DNA from: Thermoanaerobaculia bacterium
Lineage (GTDB): Bacteria > Acidobacteriota > Thermoanaerobaculia > Multivoradales > JAIOJS01
Direction: 5' to 3'
Length of the DNA: 64,000 nucleotides
Assembly: GCA_030429235.1 (NCBI GenBank)
Contig: JAUIDB010000004.1
Span: 124,001 to 188,000, forward strand
Shown here: in pieces, positions 3,049 through 13,696 of the stretch
Position numbering within the stretch: the stretch's first letter is position 1
Layout: every line of letters starts with the position of its first letter
Made by a program: the position numbers and the translations under genes
Notes under the pieces: generated by a model
The model's input: the letters and a program-made list of their open reading frames with translations, nothing else
Database searches by the model: none
What the model was told of the DNA's origin: nothing

Positions 3049-4503
3049 TCAAGCGGCGAGCAGGTCGTAGAGCCTCTCGTACTCCTTGCCCTGACGTTGC
3101 CACGAAAAGTCGCGCTGCATCCCCCGGATCTGTAGACGCTTCCAGGCCTCTGGATCCTGATGGTAGGTGCGGAGCGCGAAGTCCAGGGCCCAGCCCATGC
3201 CCACGGGGGTGAAGTGGTCGAAGACGAACCCGGTACCGGTGTCGGCCTCGGGGTCGTAGAGTTCCACCGTGTCGGCGAGTCCCCCGGTGCGTCGAACGAT
3301 CGGCACGGTGCCGTAGCGAAGGCTGTACATCTGGTTCAAACCACAGGGCTCGTACCGCGAGGGCATCAGGAAGATGTCGGCGGCGGCCTCGATCTGATGC
3401 GCCAGTTCGTTCGAGTAGCCGTGGTGGAAGGCGGCCCTGCCGGGAAAGGTCTTGGCGATCCAGGAAAGAAAGTCGGCGTAGCGGTCCTCTCCCGTGCCGA
3501 GTGCTACCAGCTGGGCTCGGCCGCGAGCCAGGACGGGGGCGAGGGTGTCGAAGAGCAGGTCGAAGCCCTTTTGAGCGGTCAGCCGCGAGACGATCGCCAG
3601 CAACGGTAGTTTCGGCTCCACCTGGAGGCCCATCCGCTCTTGCAGGGCTTGCTTGTTCTTCGCCTTGCCGGCGAGGTCTTCGGCCGAGAAGGAGTGGGGG
3701 ATCAGAGGGTCCTTCTCTGGCGACCACTCCTGGTAGTCGACTCCGTTGACGATCCCCAACAACGAGTCGCGACGGCGGCGCAGGAGCCCTTCCAGCCCCA
3801 TCCCCTGTTCCGCGGTCTGGATCTCGCTGGCGTAGGTCCGACTCACCGTCGTCACCACACTGGCGTAGAGCAGGCCGGTCTTGAGGAAGTTGATCCGTCC
3901 GGCCTGCAGGTCCTCCTGGTAGAAGAGCTCGCGGTGGGCCTCGAGTTCCAGGTCACCGAGGGCCTGCCGCGGAAAGACGCCCTGATACCCGAGGTTATGC
4001 AGCGTCAACACCGTCCGGCTCCGTTCGAACAGCCGGTCCCAGGCGTAGACGGTGCGCAGATAGAGCGGCAACAAGGCCGTGTGCCAATCGTTGCAGTGGA
4101 AGACGTCCGGGGCCCAGCCCATCCGCTGGCAGGACTCGATCACCGCCCGACACAAGGCTCCGAAGCGCAGGTACTCGTCCCAGTCGCTGCCGTACACGCT
4201 CTCGCGACCGTAGAGGGCCGGACAGTGGACGAAGTAGACCAACAAGCCACCCTCGAGTTGTGTCGTGAAGACCGAAAAGGTGAGCTGGAAACGCCCCATC
4301 TGCAATGGGATCCCCTGCAGAAAGGGGACGGGTTGAAAGTCGCGCCCGCCGCGGTCCAGCGAGGCGTAGAGGGGCAGGAACGGCCGAACGTCATGTCCCT
4401 CACGGTGCAGGTGGGCCGAGAGGGCCGCGGCGACGTCCCCCAGCCCGCCGGTCTTGGCGAACGGAGTGAACTCCGAGGTGGCGAAGCAGATCGAGCGGGG
4501 CAT
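3049..4503 (-). CDS. glgA: Glycogen synthase (ADP-glucose-dependent)
   Basis: A 484-residue GT5-family glycosyltransferase that transfers glucose from ADP-glucose to a growing alpha-1,4-glucan in the cytoplasm. The N-terminus has the ADP-glucose loop FAKTGGLGDVAAAL. HNLGYQG and the C-terminal signature PSRYEPCGLNQMYSLRYGT are present, and the length is normal for the family. It starts 11 bases after the glgC stop, so the two form a glycogen-synthesis operon. A branching enzyme is not in the window. Confidence 0.97.
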   Translation of the reverse strand: MPRSICFATSEFTPFAKTGGLGDVAAALSAHLHREGHDVRPFLPLYASLDRGGRDFQPVPFLQGIPLQMGRFQLTFSVFTTQLEGGLLVYFVHCPALYGRESVYGSDWDEYLRFGALCRAVIESCQRMGWAPDVFHCNDWHTALLPLYLRTVYAWDRLFERSRTVLTLHNLGYQGVFPRQALGDLELEAHRELFYQEDLQAGRINFLKTGLLYASVVTTVSRTYASEIQTAEQGMGLEGLLRRRRDSLLGIVNGVDYQEWSPEKDPLIPHSFSAEDLAGKAKNKQALQERMGLQVEPKLPLLAIVSRLTAQKGFDLLFDTLAPVLARGRAQLVALGTGEDRYADFLSWIAKTFPGRAAFHHGYSNELAHQIEAAADIFLMPSRYEPCGLNQMYSLRYGTVPIVRRTGGLADTVELYDPEADTGTGFVFDHFTPVGMGWALDFALRTYHQDPEAWKRLQIRGMQRDFSWQRQGKEYERLYDLLAA

Positions 4504-4514
4504 GGCTCGCGCCT

Positions 4515-5777
4515 CTAGATGACGGTACCGGGTGCGATGACCGCGTCCTTGGGAATCACGATGATTCCACCTCGGATAGCGTAGTTCTCGCCATCCGCCT
4601 CGTCGACTCCCTCGGCGTTGATCAACTCGGCGCCATCCCCGATGCGCGCATTGAGGTCGACGATGCAGTTCTTCAACTTGCAGCCTCGCCCCACGCCTAC
4701 GGCCGGGCTATTGGCGCCGCCGCCGATGTCGAACGAGGTCGCCCCCATGATGATCGAGTTGTCGATCTCACAGCCGCTCTGGACCAGCGCCCGGATGCCG
4801 ATGATCGAGCGTCGGATCGAACTCGCCGAGATGATGCTGCCCTCGCACAGCACCGACTGCAGGACCTCGCAGCGGTTGATCTTGGTCCCAGGAAGAAAGC
4901 GCGGGTGGGTGTAGATCGGGCGCTCGGCGCTGTAGAGGTTGAGCGGCGGCAGCGGTTGGGTCAGATCGAGATTGGCGCGGTGGAACGAGGGGATGGTCCC
5001 AATGTCTTGCCAGTATCCGGTGTGGCCCCAGGCGTGGACGTTGAACTGCTCGATCGCCGCGGGGATGACCTCCTGGCCGAAGTCGGACTTGGTGTTGCCC
5101 CGCAGCAGACGCCCCACCATGCCCCGGCGGAACACGTAGATTCCCATGCTGGCCAGTACCGAGCCCGCCGGTGCTTCGAAGCCCAGATGCTTCAGCTGCT
5201 CCTCGCTGAGGGCCAAGCTCTCGATCAGCTCCGGGTCCTTGGGTTTTTCGATGAACTCGACGATGCGGCCGGTATCGTCGACCCGCATGACGCCGAAACC
5301 CTGGCACTCCTGCTGCGAGACCGGCTTGACGGCGACCGTGAGATCCGCCTCGCGGGCGCGATGGTGCAGGATGAACCGCTCCAGGTCCATGAGGTAGAGC
5401 TGGTCCCCCGACAGAATCAGGAGATCATCGGGCTGCGTATCGTCGAGCCGATCCAGGTTCCTCCGCACCGCATCGGCCGTTCCCTGATACCAATCGCGGT
5501 GGCTGACGGTCTGTTCCGCCGCCAGGATGTTGACGAAACCGGGGCTGAAGACATCGAAACGGTAGGTCTGGGCGATATGGCGGTGCAGGCTGGCGCTGTT
5601 GAACTGAGTGATCACATAGATCTGGTCGATTCCGGCGTGCAGGCTATTGCTGATCGGAATGTCGATGAGACGGAACCGGCCTCCCACCGGCACCGCCGGT
5701 TTGGCACGGTACTCCGTCAAGGGCCAGAGTCGGCTGCCCTGGCCGCCCCCGAGGACTGCTGTGACGACTCCCTTCAT
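4515..5777 (-). CDS. glgC: Glucose-1-phosphate adenylyltransferase (ADP-glucose pyrophosphorylase)
   Basis: A 420-residue enzyme that makes ADP-glucose from glucose-1-phosphate and ATP, the committed step of glycogen synthesis. The nucleotide-binding signature GGGQGSRLWPLTEYRAKP lies at the N-terminus, with ILSGDQLYLMD and EFIEKPKDPE following. The C-terminus has the hexapeptide left-handed beta-helix (SIIGIRALVQSGCEI and similar). An upstream in-frame extension to 5927 exists, but the ATG at 5777 has a good site (GAGGAGGGG about 9 bases upstream) and the conserved start context MKGVVTAVLGGG. First gene of the glgC-glgA operon. Confidence 0.97.
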   Translation of the reverse strand: MKGVVTAVLGGGQGSRLWPLTEYRAKPAVPVGGRFRLIDIPISNSLHAGIDQIYVITQFNSASLHRHIAQTYRFDVFSPGFVNILAAEQTVSHRDWYQGTADAVRRNLDRLDDTQPDDLLILSGDQLYLMDLERFILHHRAREADLTVAVKPVSQQECQGFGVMRVDDTGRIVEFIEKPKDPELIESLALSEEQLKHLGFEAPAGSVLASMGIYVFRRGMVGRLLRGNTKSDFGQEVIPAAIEQFNVHAWGHTGYWQDIGTIPSFHRANLDLTQPLPPLNLYSAERPIYTHPRFLPGTKINRCEVLQSVLCEGSIISASSIRRSIIGIRALVQSGCEIDNSIIMGATSFDIGGGANSPAVGVGRGCKLKNCIVDLNARIGDGAELINAEGVDEADGENYAIRGGIIVIPKDAVIAPGTVI

Positions 5778-6003
5778 GCGCTGTGTACCCCTCCTCGTTC
5801 CGCACCGATGATTCGATCTGTGGTCTGGGCCTGATCTTACCCGGTCGGAGCCGGCGCCTCCGAGACCGGACCTGGGATCAGGAGCCGACCGTGCGACCGG
5901 GCGCAGCGTCGGAGCGCGGACTACCATAAACTCAACGCATCGAACGCCGGATGAACCCGCCGGATCCTCGCGATCGGGTTGTCCCCCAACGGAGTCTCAC
6001 TGC

Positions 6004-7224
6004 ATGCCCAACGTCGTCTTCGCCGCTCCCTTCCTCTTCGGCAACACCCTGCGATTTCTACGCGGGATGGTGCAACTCGACGGAGTCCGGCTCGCCCTCC
6101 TGACGGGTGATCCCATCGAGAAACTGCCGGCGGACCTTCGACCCGGCATCCACCACTACCACCGCATCGCCAACCCGACCGACGCCCAGGCGATTCTCGA
6201 TGGGTGCCGCGTCCTGAGTGGTGAGATGGGCTCGATCGACCGACTGATCGGAATCCTCGAGCAGATCCAGGGACAGTTGGGCGAAGTGCGCGACGCTCTG
6301 AAGCTGCCGGGCATGGGTGCCGAAGCGGCGAACAACTTCCGCGACAAGGCGCGCATGAAGGACATCCTCCGACGGGCTCAGATCCCGTGTGCACGCCATG
6401 CTCTGGCGCAGGACGAAGCCGCTGTCTGGAAGGCGGCCGAGACCATCGGCTTTCCCATGGTGGTCAAACCACCGGCCGGAGCCGGAGCCAAGGGCACCTA
6501 CCGGCTCGAGAATGCGCAGCAGGTGCGCGAGGCCCTCGCCATGGGTCCTCCGTCGGCGGGAAGGGCCTGGATGATGGAGGAGTTCGTGGTCGGAGACGAA
6601 CAGTCCTTCGACACCATCTGCATCCAGGGCAAGCCGGTATGGCACTCGTTGACCCACTACCTGCCGACGCCCCTGGAGGCGATGGAGAACCCCTGGATCC
6701 AATGGTGCGTGGTCCTGCCTCGCGAGGTAGAGCACCCACGATACGACGACATTCGTGACGCGGCGTTTCGTTCTCTCGACGCCCTTGGGATGGGTACCGG
6801 CTTTGCCCACATGGAGTGGTTTCGGCGCAAGGATGGTTCGGTCGCGGTGTCGGAAGTCGCCGCCCGGCCACCCGGCGCTCAGATCGGTCCCCTGATCCAG
6901 TTTGCCCACGGCTTCGACTTCTACCGCGAATGGTGTCGCTTGATGGTCTACGAGCGCTGGGAGACTCCGCCCCGACAGTACGCCACCGGAGCCGCCTTCC
7001 TGCGAGGTCAGCGCCCGGGACGAGTCAAGGCGGTCCATGGGCTGGACATCGTGCGCCAGGAACTGGGTCCCCTCATCGCCGAGGCCAACCTACCGCAGCG
7101 GGGGCAGCCCAAGTCGAGCAGCTACGAGGGAGAGGGCAACATCGTGTTGCGTCACCCACAAACCGAGGTCGTGGTGCAGGCGCTGCGCCGACTGATCAGC
7201 GTCGTTCGCGTCGAGATGGAGTAG
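6004..7224 (+). CDS. ATP-grasp ligase, first of a tandem pair
   Basis: A 406-residue cytoplasmic protein of the ATP-grasp superfamily, which couples ATP hydrolysis to carboxylate-amine (or thiol) ligation through an acyl-phosphate. Visible core: NNFRDKARMKDIL at about 110, the lysine strand PMVVKPPAGAGAKGTY at about 155, EEFVVGDEQSFDT at about 195, and the metal-binding strand VSEVAARPPGAQIGPLIQ at about 285. It resembles the carnosine-synthase/CPSase-like group. The next gene is a same-length paralogue four bases downstream. Substrates are not predictable from context, because no other biosynthetic gene is linked. Confidence 0.85.
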   Translation: MPNVVFAAPFLFGNTLRFLRGMVQLDGVRLALLTGDPIEKLPADLRPGIHHYHRIANPTDAQAILDGCRVLSGEMGSIDRLIGILEQIQGQLGEVRDALKLPGMGAEAANNFRDKARMKDILRRAQIPCARHALAQDEAAVWKAAETIGFPMVVKPPAGAGAKGTYRLENAQQVREALAMGPPSAGRAWMMEEFVVGDEQSFDTICIQGKPVWHSLTHYLPTPLEAMENPWIQWCVVLPREVEHPRYDDIRDAAFRSLDALGMGTGFAHMEWFRRKDGSVAVSEVAARPPGAQIGPLIQFAHGFDFYREWCRLMVYERWETPPRQYATGAAFLRGQRPGRVKAVHGLDIVRQELGPLIAEANLPQRGQPKSSSYEGEGNIVLRHPQTEVVVQALRRLISVVRVEME

Positions 7225-7228
7225 AGCC

Positions 7229-8449
7229 ATGGATGTCCTGATGTTTTCGCCGGGGTTCCCGGCCGAGATGCCCTACTTCACCCGCGGTCTGGCCGAGGTC
7301 GGGGTTCGGGTCTGGGGTCTGGGCGACCAGCCGCTACCGGCTCTGCCCGAGGTCGCGCGCCACGCTCTGTCGGGCTACCTCCGTGTCCCGCGGCTGTGGG
7401 ACTCCAAGGCCGTTCTCCACGAACTTCGGGGGTGGCAGGAAGGACCCCGAACCCTCGATCGCATCGAGTGTTTGTGGGAGCCGGGAATGATGCTGGCCGC
7501 CGAACTCCGGGAGGCGCTCGATCTGCCCGGCATGCGGCCCCACGAGACGCTGCCGTTCCGCGACAAGGGCGCCATGAAAGAGGTTCTCGACCGCGCCGGG
7601 TTGCGGACGCCGCGCTACCGGCGCGCCACCAACCCCCGGGAGGTCGAAGCGGCAGCCGAGGCGATCGGTTTCCCGTTGATCATCAAACCGATCGCTGGCG
7701 CCGGCTCCGCCGACACCTACCGCGTCGGCGACGCTGGAGAGTTGCAGACCGTCCTGCCGCGAGTCCGGCACGTCCCCGAGATGAGCGTCGAGGAGTTCAT
7801 CGAGGGTGAAGAGTACACCTACGACACCATCGGAGCCGACGGCAACCTGTTCTACGAGAACGTCGCCTGGTACCGCCCCAAACCGCTCATCGCCCGATCG
7901 GTAGAGTGGATCAGCCCGCAGACCATCACGCTCCGCGACTTCGCGGCCCCGACCCTGCGACCCGGCATCGAACTCGGGCGCAGCGTTCTGCAGGCACTGG
8001 GCTTCCGCACCGGGTTCACCCACATGGAGTGGTTTCTCAAACCCGACGGCGAGGCGATCTTCGGAGAGATCGGGGCGCGTCCTCCCGGTGCCCGTTCGGT
8101 CGAACTGATGAACTATGGCTGCGACATCGACGTGTTTCGGGGTTGGGCCGAGGCGACCTGCCACGGTCGGTTCTCGCAGGAAGTCCATCGGCGCTACAAC
8201 GCCGCCGTGATTTTCAAGCGGGCCCAGGGCGAAGGACGGATTCAACGGATCGAGGGGCTGGAGAGCATCCTCGGACACTTCGGTCCGCACATCACCTGTG
8301 TGAATCTCCTCCCCCCAGGCGCTCGGCGCCGCAACTGGAAACAGACGCTGATCTCGGATGGCTACATCATCTTGCGACACCCCGACCTCGGGGTGACCCT
8401 GGCCATGGCCGACCGCGTGGGATCGCACCTGCGGATCCAGGCGGGCTAG
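7229..8449 (+). CDS. ATP-grasp ligase, second of a tandem pair
   Basis: Also 406 residues and clearly paralogous to the preceding gene: LPFRDKGAMKEVLDRAGL, PLIIKPIAGAGSADTYRV, EEFIEGEEYTYDT, GFRTGFTHMEWF and GEIGARPPGARSVELMNYG match in order. The N-terminal about 100 residues (substrate-binding pre-ATP-grasp region) are less similar, which suggests different substrates or successive steps on one product. Spacing of four bases implies translational coupling and perhaps a heteromer. The gene ends just before the convergent rluD-like gene. Confidence 0.85.
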   Translation: MDVLMFSPGFPAEMPYFTRGLAEVGVRVWGLGDQPLPALPEVARHALSGYLRVPRLWDSKAVLHELRGWQEGPRTLDRIECLWEPGMMLAAELREALDLPGMRPHETLPFRDKGAMKEVLDRAGLRTPRYRRATNPREVEAAAEAIGFPLIIKPIAGAGSADTYRVGDAGELQTVLPRVRHVPEMSVEEFIEGEEYTYDTIGADGNLFYENVAWYRPKPLIARSVEWISPQTITLRDFAAPTLRPGIELGRSVLQALGFRTGFTHMEWFLKPDGEAIFGEIGARPPGARSVELMNYGCDIDVFRGWAEATCHGRFSQEVHRRYNAAVIFKRAQGEGRIQRIEGLESILGHFGPHITCVNLLPPGARRRNWKQTLISDGYIILRHPDLGVTLAMADRVGSHLRIQAG

Positions 8450-8456
8450 CGGCTCG

Positions 8457-9434
8457 TCAACCGCCCGTCAGCGAGGCCCACAGCTCACTGAGGTCTGAGG
8501 GCGTGGGGGCGGTGATCACCACCGGGTCGCCGAGCACCGGGTGGTCGAATGCCAATTCCAGGGCGTGCAGGGCGGGCCGAGGAAAGCTCTTCACCGCCGC
8601 TCTGAGCGGCGCGGGGAGCGCCTTCCAGCGCGCTTCGCCGTAGACCGGATCCCCGACGAGGGGCGTCCCCCCCTCCTTGGCGTGCACCCGGATCTGGTGG
8701 GTTCGTCCCGTTTCGATGCGGACCCGCACCCGAGCCAGCCCGGGGGCCCGAGCTACGACTTCGAAGTGACTGACCGCCGGCCGGCCGTCGGAGCGGACGG
8801 TCATTCGGGTGCGCTCCTGCGGATGCCGGCCCACCGGAGCGTCGATGGTCCAGCGATCTCGGGAGTGGGTCGTGAACAAAATCGCCTCGTAGACCTTGCG
8901 CACGCGACGTTCCGCAAAGGCGGCGCTGAGGGCCCGATAGGCGGCGGGGCTACGGGCAAGCACCATGACCCCACTCGTGTCCTTGTCGAGCCGGTGCACG
9001 ATGCCGGGGCGCCCCGGCCCTCCGATGCCGGCGAGTTCCGGGGCGTAAGCGAGGGCGCGGTGGACCAGGGTTCCGGTCGGGCGCCCCGCCCCGGGATGCA
9101 CCGTGAGCCCGGCCGGCTTGTCGACCACCAGCAGGTCGGGATCCTCGAACAGAATCGTCAGTTCGCCCGCCTCGGGCACGATCCGATCGTCGACGCGCGG
9201 GGGCCGGCTCCACCGGACCTCGGAGCCGGCCTCCACCGCGTGGGAAGGACGCACCACGCGCCGGTCGACGAGCACCCGGCCCTCACGGATCCAGCGCTGG
9301 ACCTGGCTCCGCGGTTCGGCGAGTTCCCGGCTCAACCATCGGTCGAGGCGCTCGCCGCCAGCTTCCGCCGGTACCGAAGTGGACTCCCAGTCTCCGACCT
9401 CCGGGCGAGGCCCTGATTCGCGGTCGCCGTTCAA
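8457..9434 (-). CDS. rluD: RluA/RluD-family 23S rRNA pseudouridine synthase
   Basis: A 325-residue enzyme. An N-terminal S4-like RNA-binding segment (ERLDRWLSRELAEPRSQVQR) precedes the catalytic domain with HRLDKDTSGVMVLA, which contains the catalytic Asp, and ETGRTHQIRVHA. It isomerises uridine to pseudouridine in rRNA; RluD acts on the helix-69 loop, and exact site specificity cannot be read here. The start is TTG at 9434, overlapping the lspA stop (TTGA). lspA-rluD adjacency is common in bacteria and supports the RluD assignment over RluA or RluC. Confidence 0.88.
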   Translation of the reverse strand: MNGDRESGPRPEVGDWESTSVPAEAGGERLDRWLSRELAEPRSQVQRWIREGRVLVDRRVVRPSHAVEAGSEVRWSRPPRVDDRIVPEAGELTILFEDPDLLVVDKPAGLTVHPGAGRPTGTLVHRALAYAPELAGIGGPGRPGIVHRLDKDTSGVMVLARSPAAYRALSAAFAERRVRKVYEAILFTTHSRDRWTIDAPVGRHPQERTRMTVRSDGRPAVSHFEVVARAPGLARVRVRIETGRTHQIRVHAKEGGTPLVGDPVYGEARWKALPAPLRAAVKSFPRPALHALELAFDHPVLGDPVVITAPTPSDLSELWASLTGG

Positions 9435-11347: not shown

Positions 11348-13696
11348 CTAGTTCGGTCGCGAGCGCCGCTGGGGGCGGTCCGACTTCTCCTTGTTGCTGC
11401 TCCGACTCGAGCTCTCCTTGCTGCCCGAGCTGCGGGTCGAACTCTGCTTGCCGGACCGGCGGTCGCCGGAGGTCGCCGAGCGCTCACCGCCCGAGCGGGA
11501 GCTCGATCGGGTCGCCGCCGAGTCCGATCCACTGCGCCGTCGGTCAGGGCTGGAGGTGGTGGAGCGAGCGGGCGGCGCCTGCCGCGGGGCGGGACGCGTC
11601 GTTCGAGGTGTCGCCCTGGTGTCGGCCTGCGGCGCGGTCTGCCGCTGCGGCCGCTCGTAGGTCGAGGAAGGGCGGGCTCGATCCGTAGAGCGCCCTCCGC
11701 TGGACGGGCTGACCCGGCGGGGGGCGGTGGCTCGCACCCCAGAGTCACTCTGCGACGTGACCCGTCGACCGGAGGCCCCATCCGTCTCGCGCGTACTGCC
11801 CTCCCGGGACGCCGGCCTCGAACCTTCGACTACCCGACGTACGATCTCCCGGTCGCGCGACGGCGAGCGCGGTGAGGTCGTGGCGCGCCCACGATCTCTG
11901 GGTGGCTGCGACCGCGTCGCGGTCGGACGCTCCTCGCGCTCGTCACCCGATCGCTGGACGCGTCGGCTGGTGGTAGCGGAGCGGTCGCCGTCGGTTCGGA
12001 CACCGCCACCCGTGGCCGATCGAACGCGTCGGGGGCTGTCGGTGGAGCGCGTCGCGGAGGGCGAACCCTCGCGGCTGCGATCCTCGACCCGGGCGCCACC
12101 GCCCGTCACCCGCTCTACGCTACGGCGGTCGCCACGACTCCCGACGGCGCGCGGCGTGTCGGTCCTCTCGCCGGTGCGATCGGTGGGCCGAACGCTTCGT
12201 CGTTCGCTCCGATCGGATCCGGTGGTCGACACGCGTGGCGGCTCGCCACTGCGGTCCGTCCGGCCCCGCGTGCCCGCCGCGCGCCCGCCGTCGGCCCGAT
12301 CGTCCGCCACCGGCATCGCCACCCGCACGATCTCGCTGCGCGTATCGCGGCGCGCCACGAAGTCGGTGAGATCCGGCAGGTTGCGCTGAGCTCGCCGCCC
12401 GTCGCGATCGGTGTGGTGCTCCAGAACCTCGATCGCCGACCGCGGCTGGCGAACCGTTTCCGGCCGGAGGCCGCGGGTATCGGTCGTGATCAAGCCGCGC
12501 GGGATCACATCGCTGCGCGAGCGTCCCACGTACTCGTGGCCACGACGCAGGTGGCGGCGGAGGTGCCGATCGTAGACCCGGTCGGAACCGACGAAGGTCC
12601 AGTACTGGTAGTCCCGATGGTGGCCGCCAGCCCAACCGTAGACCCCGACTCGCAAGCGCAGGTTGTGGTGGGAGCGACCGTAGTGGTGCCGCCCGTAGTA
12701 GCGGGTGTAGTAGCCGGTAGGACACCAACCCACGCGGTCAGTTCCCCAGTACCAGTAGACCCAGGCCGGGCGGTAGATGCGACCGGGGTACCAGACCCAG
12801 CCGTAGCGCTGGTGTCGATCCCAGGTGCCGTAGTGGTGCGGCACCCAGCCCCAGGGCTCGTAGGAGACCCAGGTCATACCGCTCGGGGTATAGACCCAGC
12901 GACCGTCCCGGTATGGGGCCCAATCGATGCTGACCCGAGGGCGCCAGAAGGAAACGCTCGACTCGACGTGCCAGCTACCATGGCGCTGGAGCGACGCACT
13001 CGCGTAGCGGAGACTGCGATCCACCTCCGGCCCACCGTAGCCACCGGCGGCCAGGCGGTCGAGTTCGGCTCCCCAGCGCTCGAGGGAATCGCTTCCACCC
13101 GCCCAGTCGATACGAACTCGAGGACGGTCGAGGCCAGTGATCGATGCCCGCTCGCGCTGCCGCACGAGGCTACTGTCGTCGCGGGTGAGGAGTTCGGCCG
13201 AACCCTCGCGCACCGTGACGGTGGATACGTACCCTCGGCTCTCCAGCCGATAGGTACCGGGCTCGACGAGATAGATGGTGCTGTTGGGAGTGTCGACCCG
13301 AGTCTGCGCCGCGCCGACCGCGTCGTGCGGCACGGTGACCAATATCTCGCCCTTGTCGAGGTAGAGCAGAGTACCGTCGCTCGAATGGTCCGCCGCGAAG
13401 GCCAACCGATCGAACGCCAACACCGTGTTGCCGTCGACCCGGACCAGGGTGGAGTCGGGAAGAATCGCCTCGACGCGACTGCCGTACGAGGTCCAGAGCT
13501 GGTCGCCGGTCATCAGGGGGTAGTTGCTCTCGACTTCACTCCGCTCTCCGTCCTGGGTGACGGTGGCCGAGCCTTCGACGACGCTGAAGTAACCGTAGCG
13601 GCCTTCATCGTCGGCCAGAACTGGCGACGAGAGGATCAGTCCGGCGGCCAACGCCAGACCCAGAAGGCGTTTGGGGTGGGTGGTGTGTCGTGCCAT
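11348..13696 (-). CDS. Secreted FecR/DUF6600-type protein with a long Arg/Ser-rich disordered tail
   Basis: A 782-residue protein. A signal peptide (LLGLALAAGLILSSPVLA) precedes a FecR-like beta domain (about 35-200: EGSATVTQDGERSEV, ALLPDSTL-type strands, DTPNSTIYLVEPGTYRL). Residues about 250-400 are very aromatic with repeated Trp/Tyr motifs (WVSYEPWGWVPHHYGTWD, YWYWGTDRVGW), the pattern of DUF6600. From about 410 to the end the protein is an Arg/Ser/Thr/Gly-rich low-complexity tail with strongly positive charge. It has a good ribosome site (AAGGAG) before the ATG. Function is unknown; location is probably periplasmic or surface. The opposite strand carries a long open shadow frame caused by the high GC content. 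Confidence 0.8.
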   Translation of the reverse strand: MARHTTHPKRLLGLALAAGLILSSPVLADDEGRYGYFSVVEGSATVTQDGERSEVESNYPLMTGDQLWTSYGSRVEAILPDSTLVRVDGNTVLAFDRLAFAADHSSDGTLLYLDKGEILVTVPHDAVGAAQTRVDTPNSTIYLVEPGTYRLESRGYVSTVTVREGSAELLTRDDSSLVRQRERASITGLDRPRVRIDWAGGSDSLERWGAELDRLAAGGYGGPEVDRSLRYASASLQRHGSWHVESSVSFWRPRVSIDWAPYRDGRWVYTPSGMTWVSYEPWGWVPHHYGTWDRHQRYGWVWYPGRIYRPAWVYWYWGTDRVGWCPTGYYTRYYGRHHYGRSHHNLRLRVGVYGWAGGHHRDYQYWTFVGSDRVYDRHLRRHLRRGHEYVGRSRSDVIPRGLITTDTRGLRPETVRQPRSAIEVLEHHTDRDGRRAQRNLPDLTDFVARRDTRSEIVRVAMPVADDRADGGRAAGTRGRTDRSGEPPRVSTTGSDRSERRSVRPTDRTGERTDTPRAVGSRGDRRSVERVTGGGARVEDRSREGSPSATRSTDSPRRVRSATGGGVRTDGDRSATTSRRVQRSGDEREERPTATRSQPPRDRGRATTSPRSPSRDREIVRRVVEGSRPASREGSTRETDGASGRRVTSQSDSGVRATAPRRVSPSSGGRSTDRARPSSTYERPQRQTAPQADTRATPRTTRPAPRQAPPARSTTSSPDRRRSGSDSAATRSSSRSGGERSATSGDRRSGKQSSTRSSGSKESSSRSSNKEKSDRPQRRSRPN

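Follow-up and report, generated by a model that had tools for sequence, protein, structure and literature searches.

Paired ATP-grasp ligase-like genes and a recurring bacterial gene set often located near glgA or glgC

The alanine-anticapsin ligase BacD/YwfE acts in bacilysin synthesis, and multi-ligase peptide clusters were reportedly predicted from gene context in the 2009 amidoligase survey of Iyer and colleagues. L-amino-acid ligases couple free amino acids to dipeptides and, according to one account (PMC6920838), those characterised so far yield dipeptides only. Two of them, RizA (4wd3) and BL00235 (3vot), resemble the gene A product described here in whole-chain fold, in motif spacing, in having Gly/Ala at one motif position and in length, at only ~19-20% identity. 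The window, the whole 64,000-nucleotide stretch of DNA that was analysed, is part of a 4.85 Mb genome in 92 contigs and contains the following features.

Gene A, 6004-7224, + strand: 406-aa ORF encoding an L-amino-acid-ligase-like ATP-grasp protein; the stop codon ends at 7224
Gene B, 7229-8449, + strand: 406-aa ORF, a paralogue of A from a second orthologous group; the ATG starts at 7229
glgC, 4515-5927, - strand: glucose-1-phosphate adenylyltransferase by family model, a divergent recurrent neighbour of A
glgA, 3049-4503, - strand: glycogen synthase by family model, a recurrent neighbour of A
rluD candidate, 8457-9434: ORF carrying the name given in the preliminary description

Genes A and B as predicted amino-acid ligases

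The ORFs and their Pfam matches confirm the preliminary description of two 406-residue ATP-grasp proteins encoded four bases apart. Gene A matches the ATP-grasp family PF02222 above the cut-off (2.3e-13). Gene B falls below it (9.6e-6, 25.8 bits, cut-off 27), passes for ATP-grasp_3 (24.3 against a cut-off of 23.2), and has a weak match, below the cut-off, to ATPgrasp_N (PF18130, E 0.0046). The N-terminal region had been singled out as the part in which the two proteins differ, a distinction that does not hold up: A and B are 30% identical over residues 1-105 and 27% identical over residues 301-406, with 32% identity overall (408 columns). The glgC homology begins at residue 51, so that the true glgC start is probably near 5777, leaving a predicted glgC-A gap of ~226 bp. 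Scanning of 5800-8600 found no promoters (0.3 expected) and three terminator-like sites (1.0 expected). Elsewhere in the window, a 782-aa ORF (11348-13696, - strand) has an arginine- and serine-rich C-terminal half.

The lysine and metal-binding strands had been described as kept, and the catalytic residues are conserved. The loci supplied 197 family members, of which 196 have a lysine at K155 (the remaining one has X); E271, E284 and R288 are invariant, and the E-x12-E-x3-R spacing that profile alignments reveal to be identical in A, RizA and BL00235 is retained in all 197. Asn is the usual residue at one ATP-grasp motif position at which A, RizA and BL00235 all have Gly/Ala. The modelled fold of A, together with the conserved Lys, Glu and Arg catalytic residues, is that of the ATP-grasp superfamily, and A and B are, judged by motif, catalytically intact.

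A profile built from 20 A orthologues and run against solved structures ranked RizA first (1.8e-26), then BL00235 (1.5e-23), and gene B alone matched the same two structures, BL00235 at 8.4e-17 and RizA at 9.1e-14. The predicted structure of A (pLDDT 89.7) is best matched by RizA (Z 35.7, rmsd 3.5, 376 aligned), with BL00235 at Z 33.4, 4dim at Z 31.3 and PurK-type and BacD/YwfE structures at about Z 28-29. With RizA and BL00235 nearest by profile for both proteins and by fold for A, and with the E-x12-E-x3-R spacing shared, A and B are, by sequence and model, L-amino-acid-ligase-like, and dipeptide synthesis is predicted. The preliminary assignment to amide- or peptide-ligase-like ATP-grasp enzymes is supported. 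Close orthology of either gene to a characterised ligase, which would have counted against that description, was not seen, the best solved relative, RizA, being 19% identical to A in the structural alignment.

A recurring gene set

The comparison covered 81 A-bearing loci, namely the window and the best 80 of at least 519 relatives found by contig scan. The sample includes 12 phyla, the phylum names being those in the titles of MAG records, some of which may be wrong. Downstream sequence of 1.5 kb or more was available at 76 loci, and in 55 of these B is the same-strand neighbour of A, directly downstream in 52 and directly upstream in 3. Of 33 A-positive genomes in a sample of 59 relatives, 26 likewise have the two genes side by side in the same orientation. 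A lack of pairing in relatives, which would have told against the preliminary description, is thus not what was found. In a loose count, with length-filtered queries, B is present in 66/81 loci. A stricter count, for which the partner families were defined from these same 81 loci, accepted genes no more than 10 kb away that matched a family member across half its length at 38% identity or more, and gave B in 65, a further paralogue group, C, in 44, and the partner families c1, c5, c4 and c3 in 40, 40, 36 and 35 loci, respectively. By the same count glgA is present in 35 loci, glgC in 16, glgP in 11, family c7 in 10 and glgB in 9; at least one glg gene is found in 47/81 loci and none in 34, and no glgA turned up in the Dormibacterota loci of the sample. 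Three or more of C, c1, c3, c4 and c5 are present in 34/81 loci, and some kind of partner in 71. The other ten (L058, L063, L070, L072, L081, L085, L089, L109, L110 and L111), some of which are on short contigs, have none of C, c1, c3, c4, c5 or the glg genes. As a control, 592 families were compared, and the commonest outside the set reaches only 5/81 loci. The nearest gene upstream of A is divergent C, glgA or glgC in 24, 15 and 12 cases, respectively, a total of 51/77 loci.

The statement that A and B stand alone, with no pathway partners, must consequently be abandoned: C, c1, c3, c4 and c5 recur beside them, and glgC and glgA, both confirmed by family models, are also recurrent neighbours. 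The window's genome has the set, but split over contigs, which is why no partners were apparent from the window. A and B adjoin glgC and glgA, the latter the sole copy above the family cut-off in this genome; C, c4, c3 and c1 are together on a second contig (C2), and there is a c5 candidate, at 40% identity, on a third (C86). Two further features of contig C2, both named by eye, are a nucleotide-sugar (UDP-glucose) dehydrogenase-like ORF directly after C (locus L135, 13826-15178, + strand) and a histidine kinase/response regulator-like pair after c1 (L135, 2327-4782, - strand).

Family c1 is a divergent ATP-grasp, with 13 of 14 members matching PF07478 (best 1.5e-5) and DdlB first when its profile was run against solved structures (5.6e-6). 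One member each was scanned of c3, a PF00756 esterase (2.5e-24, with an Enterochelin_N match below the cut-off), of c5, a smaller PF00756 esterase (1.3e-9), and of c7, a GCS2 protein (3.6e-59) restricted to four named phyla. For c4, a single member had no Pfam or NCBIfam match and the family profile reached only E 0.07 against solved structures; the S51 assignment comes from a scan of 12 members, 11 of which match PF03575 (best 5.7e-9, the first member below the cut-off), and from comparison of folds. The c4 model (pLDDT 89.0) scores Z 15.5 with pseudo-CphB, 15.2 with cyanophycinase and 14.6 with aspartyl dipeptidase, and on this model c4 has an S51 fold and is S51/cyanophycinase-like. Of 12 aligned c4 members, 11 have the putative catalytic serine of the S-A-G motif and one, from locus L123, has Ala instead; most members have a SAGAM-like motif, and a helical segment (55-165) lies outside the S51 matches.

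The set also co-occurs when its genes are unlinked. Presence of A (E<1e-100) divided 59 relatives into 33 positive and 26 negative genomes. In raw counts that ignore kinship, c4 is found in 33/33 A-positive and 2/26 A-negative relatives, c1 (E<1e-100) in 31/33 and 2/26, and B (E<=1e-80) in 31/33 and 1/26. Five genomes whose matches were weaker, at a best E between 3.4e-49 and 1.6e-5, are left out of the c1 count (G005, G013, G021, G028 and G044). B is missing from two A-positive relatives, with genome completeness of 82% and 74%, and two genomes, G034 and G046, have c1 and c4 without A. The A-negative relatives are concentrated in a few families (f3 and f5), with f2 and f9 mixed. In a sample of 247 genomes of the phylum, again ignoring kinship, A occurs in 10, c4 in 9 and both in 8. 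In one of these co-occurrences, in the single-contig genome G117, A and c4 are ~490 kb apart, which argues that their correlation is more than linkage. There were 15 genomes in which the A locus lacks an adjacent same-strand B or ends early; B is encoded elsewhere (E<1e-100) in 11 and was not found at that threshold in 4, so that A can occur without B.

The window's genome encodes two more full-length paralogues.

Paralogue C, C2:100585-101802: full-length member of the family
Paralogue D, C65:10118-11329 (locus L136, 10109-11341): full-length member of the family, in group C

A tree of 74 rows, made by a quick method with SH-aLRT support only and long outgroup branches, was confined to this family and distant outgroups from the same genome. 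In it, branches with support 100 set apart the A rows (27) and the B rows (22), and one with support 75 the C rows (18). D had been considered as a fourth group, a division rejected as the D rows are placed among the C rows. Each of the three orthologous groups, A, B and C, contains loci from many phyla and, by this sequence evidence, the duplications seem to predate the spread of the gene set. Genes of the three groups may have been transferred between phyla. Plasmid matches numbered four, all distant (24-26% identity). The contig with D also carries a Fes-like esterase, 27% identical to c3. Tandem B'-A-B'' triples, in which two diverged B copies flank A, are present at four loci (L062, L074, L077 and L089), and contig C13 of the window's genome (G000) has a second tandem pair, whose ATP-grasp proteins are more distant, at ~120573-122490.

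Proposed function and alternatives

We favour, with a probability of roughly 0.6, the reading in which A and B form amides as ligases of a single glycogen-linked pathway. From the sequence families, the predicted folds of A and c4, the motif in A, B and C, the neighbourhood and the unlinked co-occurrence, all of which are observed, we infer the amide chemistry, the single common pathway, the order of its steps and the tie to glycogen physiology. A and B would use ATP to phosphorylate a carboxylate, which an amine would then attack to form an amide and ADP, the product probably being a dipeptide or an amino-acid conjugate. A, B, C, c1 and sometimes the GCS2-type c7 would be the ligases of one conserved pathway, acting in turn or in parallel, and c4 and the PF00756 esterases c3 and c5 could cleave, trim or recycle its product. 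On this evidence it is plausible that A and B, as suggested at the outset, cooperate or act in two steps to make a small conjugate. The pathway would have a functional link to the synthesis of glycogen, and the glgA or glgC that often lies divergent to A suggests regulation in common with it. The incomplete glg linkage, with 34/81 loci having no glg gene and no glgA in the Dormibacterota loci, counts against this link. The ten loci without any partner, the genomes in which A lacks B, and G034 and G046 with their c1 and c4 but no A count against the reading as a whole.

The resemblance of the c4 fold to cyanophycinase and aspartyl dipeptidase, the SAGAM-like motif in most c4 members and the glycogen genes that adjoin in 47/81 loci would also fit nitrogen storage, in which the peptide reserve made by the ligases, short or polymeric, has a cyanophycin-like role, is degraded by c4 and is kept alongside glycogen. 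We consider this unlikely. A cyanophycin synthetase was sought in the window's genome with TIGR02068 and rejected, since no protein came above the cut-off of 850 bits (best 77.5 bits, gene A 36); the c4 helical segment (55-165) lies outside the S51 matches, the motif serine is alanine in 1/12 members, and characterised L-amino-acid ligases give dipeptides only (PMC6920838).

Close fold scores with 4dim, PurK and PurT, enzymes of other chemistry, make a non-peptide product possible. A and B might then be PurK/PurT-like ligases of carbohydrate metabolism, with a nucleotide or a sugar amine as substrate, a role with which the PurK/PurT structures at Z 27-29 and the nearby glycogen genes would agree. 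RizA and BL00235, however, come first both by profile (1.8e-26 and 1.5e-23) and by fold (Z 35.7 and 33.4), and we regard this explanation as distinctly unlikely. 

An elaboration of the favoured reading, itself unlikely, has a widespread bacterial pathway that links glycogen with amino-acid chemistry. A, B, C and c1 would together make a small peptide or an amino-acid conjugate to prime, mark or become attached to alpha-glucan, and the glucan-associated esterases c3 and c5 and the S51-like c4 would remove it.

S-formylglutathione hydrolase is a member of the PF00756 esterase fold family. With GCS2 in 10/81 loci and c3 and c5 both PF00756 esterases, c7 and the ATP-grasps might conceivably make a peptide cofactor, a small-thiol or glutathione-like conjugate, with the esterases acting on its thioesters; but c7 is rare and restricted to four named phyla, no thiol-specific gene was seen among the recurrent neighbours, and the idea is improbable. 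That A and B are chance neighbours, hitch-hikers without a functional tie to the other genes, could draw on the location of the partners on other contigs in the window's genome but is strongly disfavoured by the recurrence across named phyla and the unlinked co-occurrence, and we hold it to be highly improbable.

Comparison with known systems

A literature search recognised no description of this gene set, the 2009 amidoligase survey being outside its scope, and the first 300,000 of the 445,374 characters of a 2024 review of prokaryotic alpha-glucan enzymes (PMC11046441) contain no mention of ATP-grasp; the conserved multi-ligase gene set is apparently undescribed. The enzymes are of known kind, and the new part is the recurring gene set, with three ligase groups, c1, c4 and two esterases, often near glgA/glgC, which outweighs the A-B pair itself in interest. 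If its members do act in a single pathway, some common metabolite or modification of glycogen has so far been overlooked, and the set is compact enough for heterologous expression combined with metabolomics.

The cyanophycin system likewise combines an ATP-grasp ligase with an S51-fold hydrolase, as do A/B and c4, but its synthetase has no counterpart above the cut-off here, and A and B, judged by their length of 406 aa, lack the extra ligase domain. The gene neighbourhoods of the 2009 amidoligase survey are reportedly like the A, B and C set in having several ligases, with peptide clusters predicted from context. BacD/YwfE has a fold like that of A (Z 28.8) and differs in its longer chain (465-471 residues) and in being only 17% identical. 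Unlike RizA and BL00235, the enzymes of this family form three conserved groups within a common gene set, and for these dipeptide synthesis is predicted.
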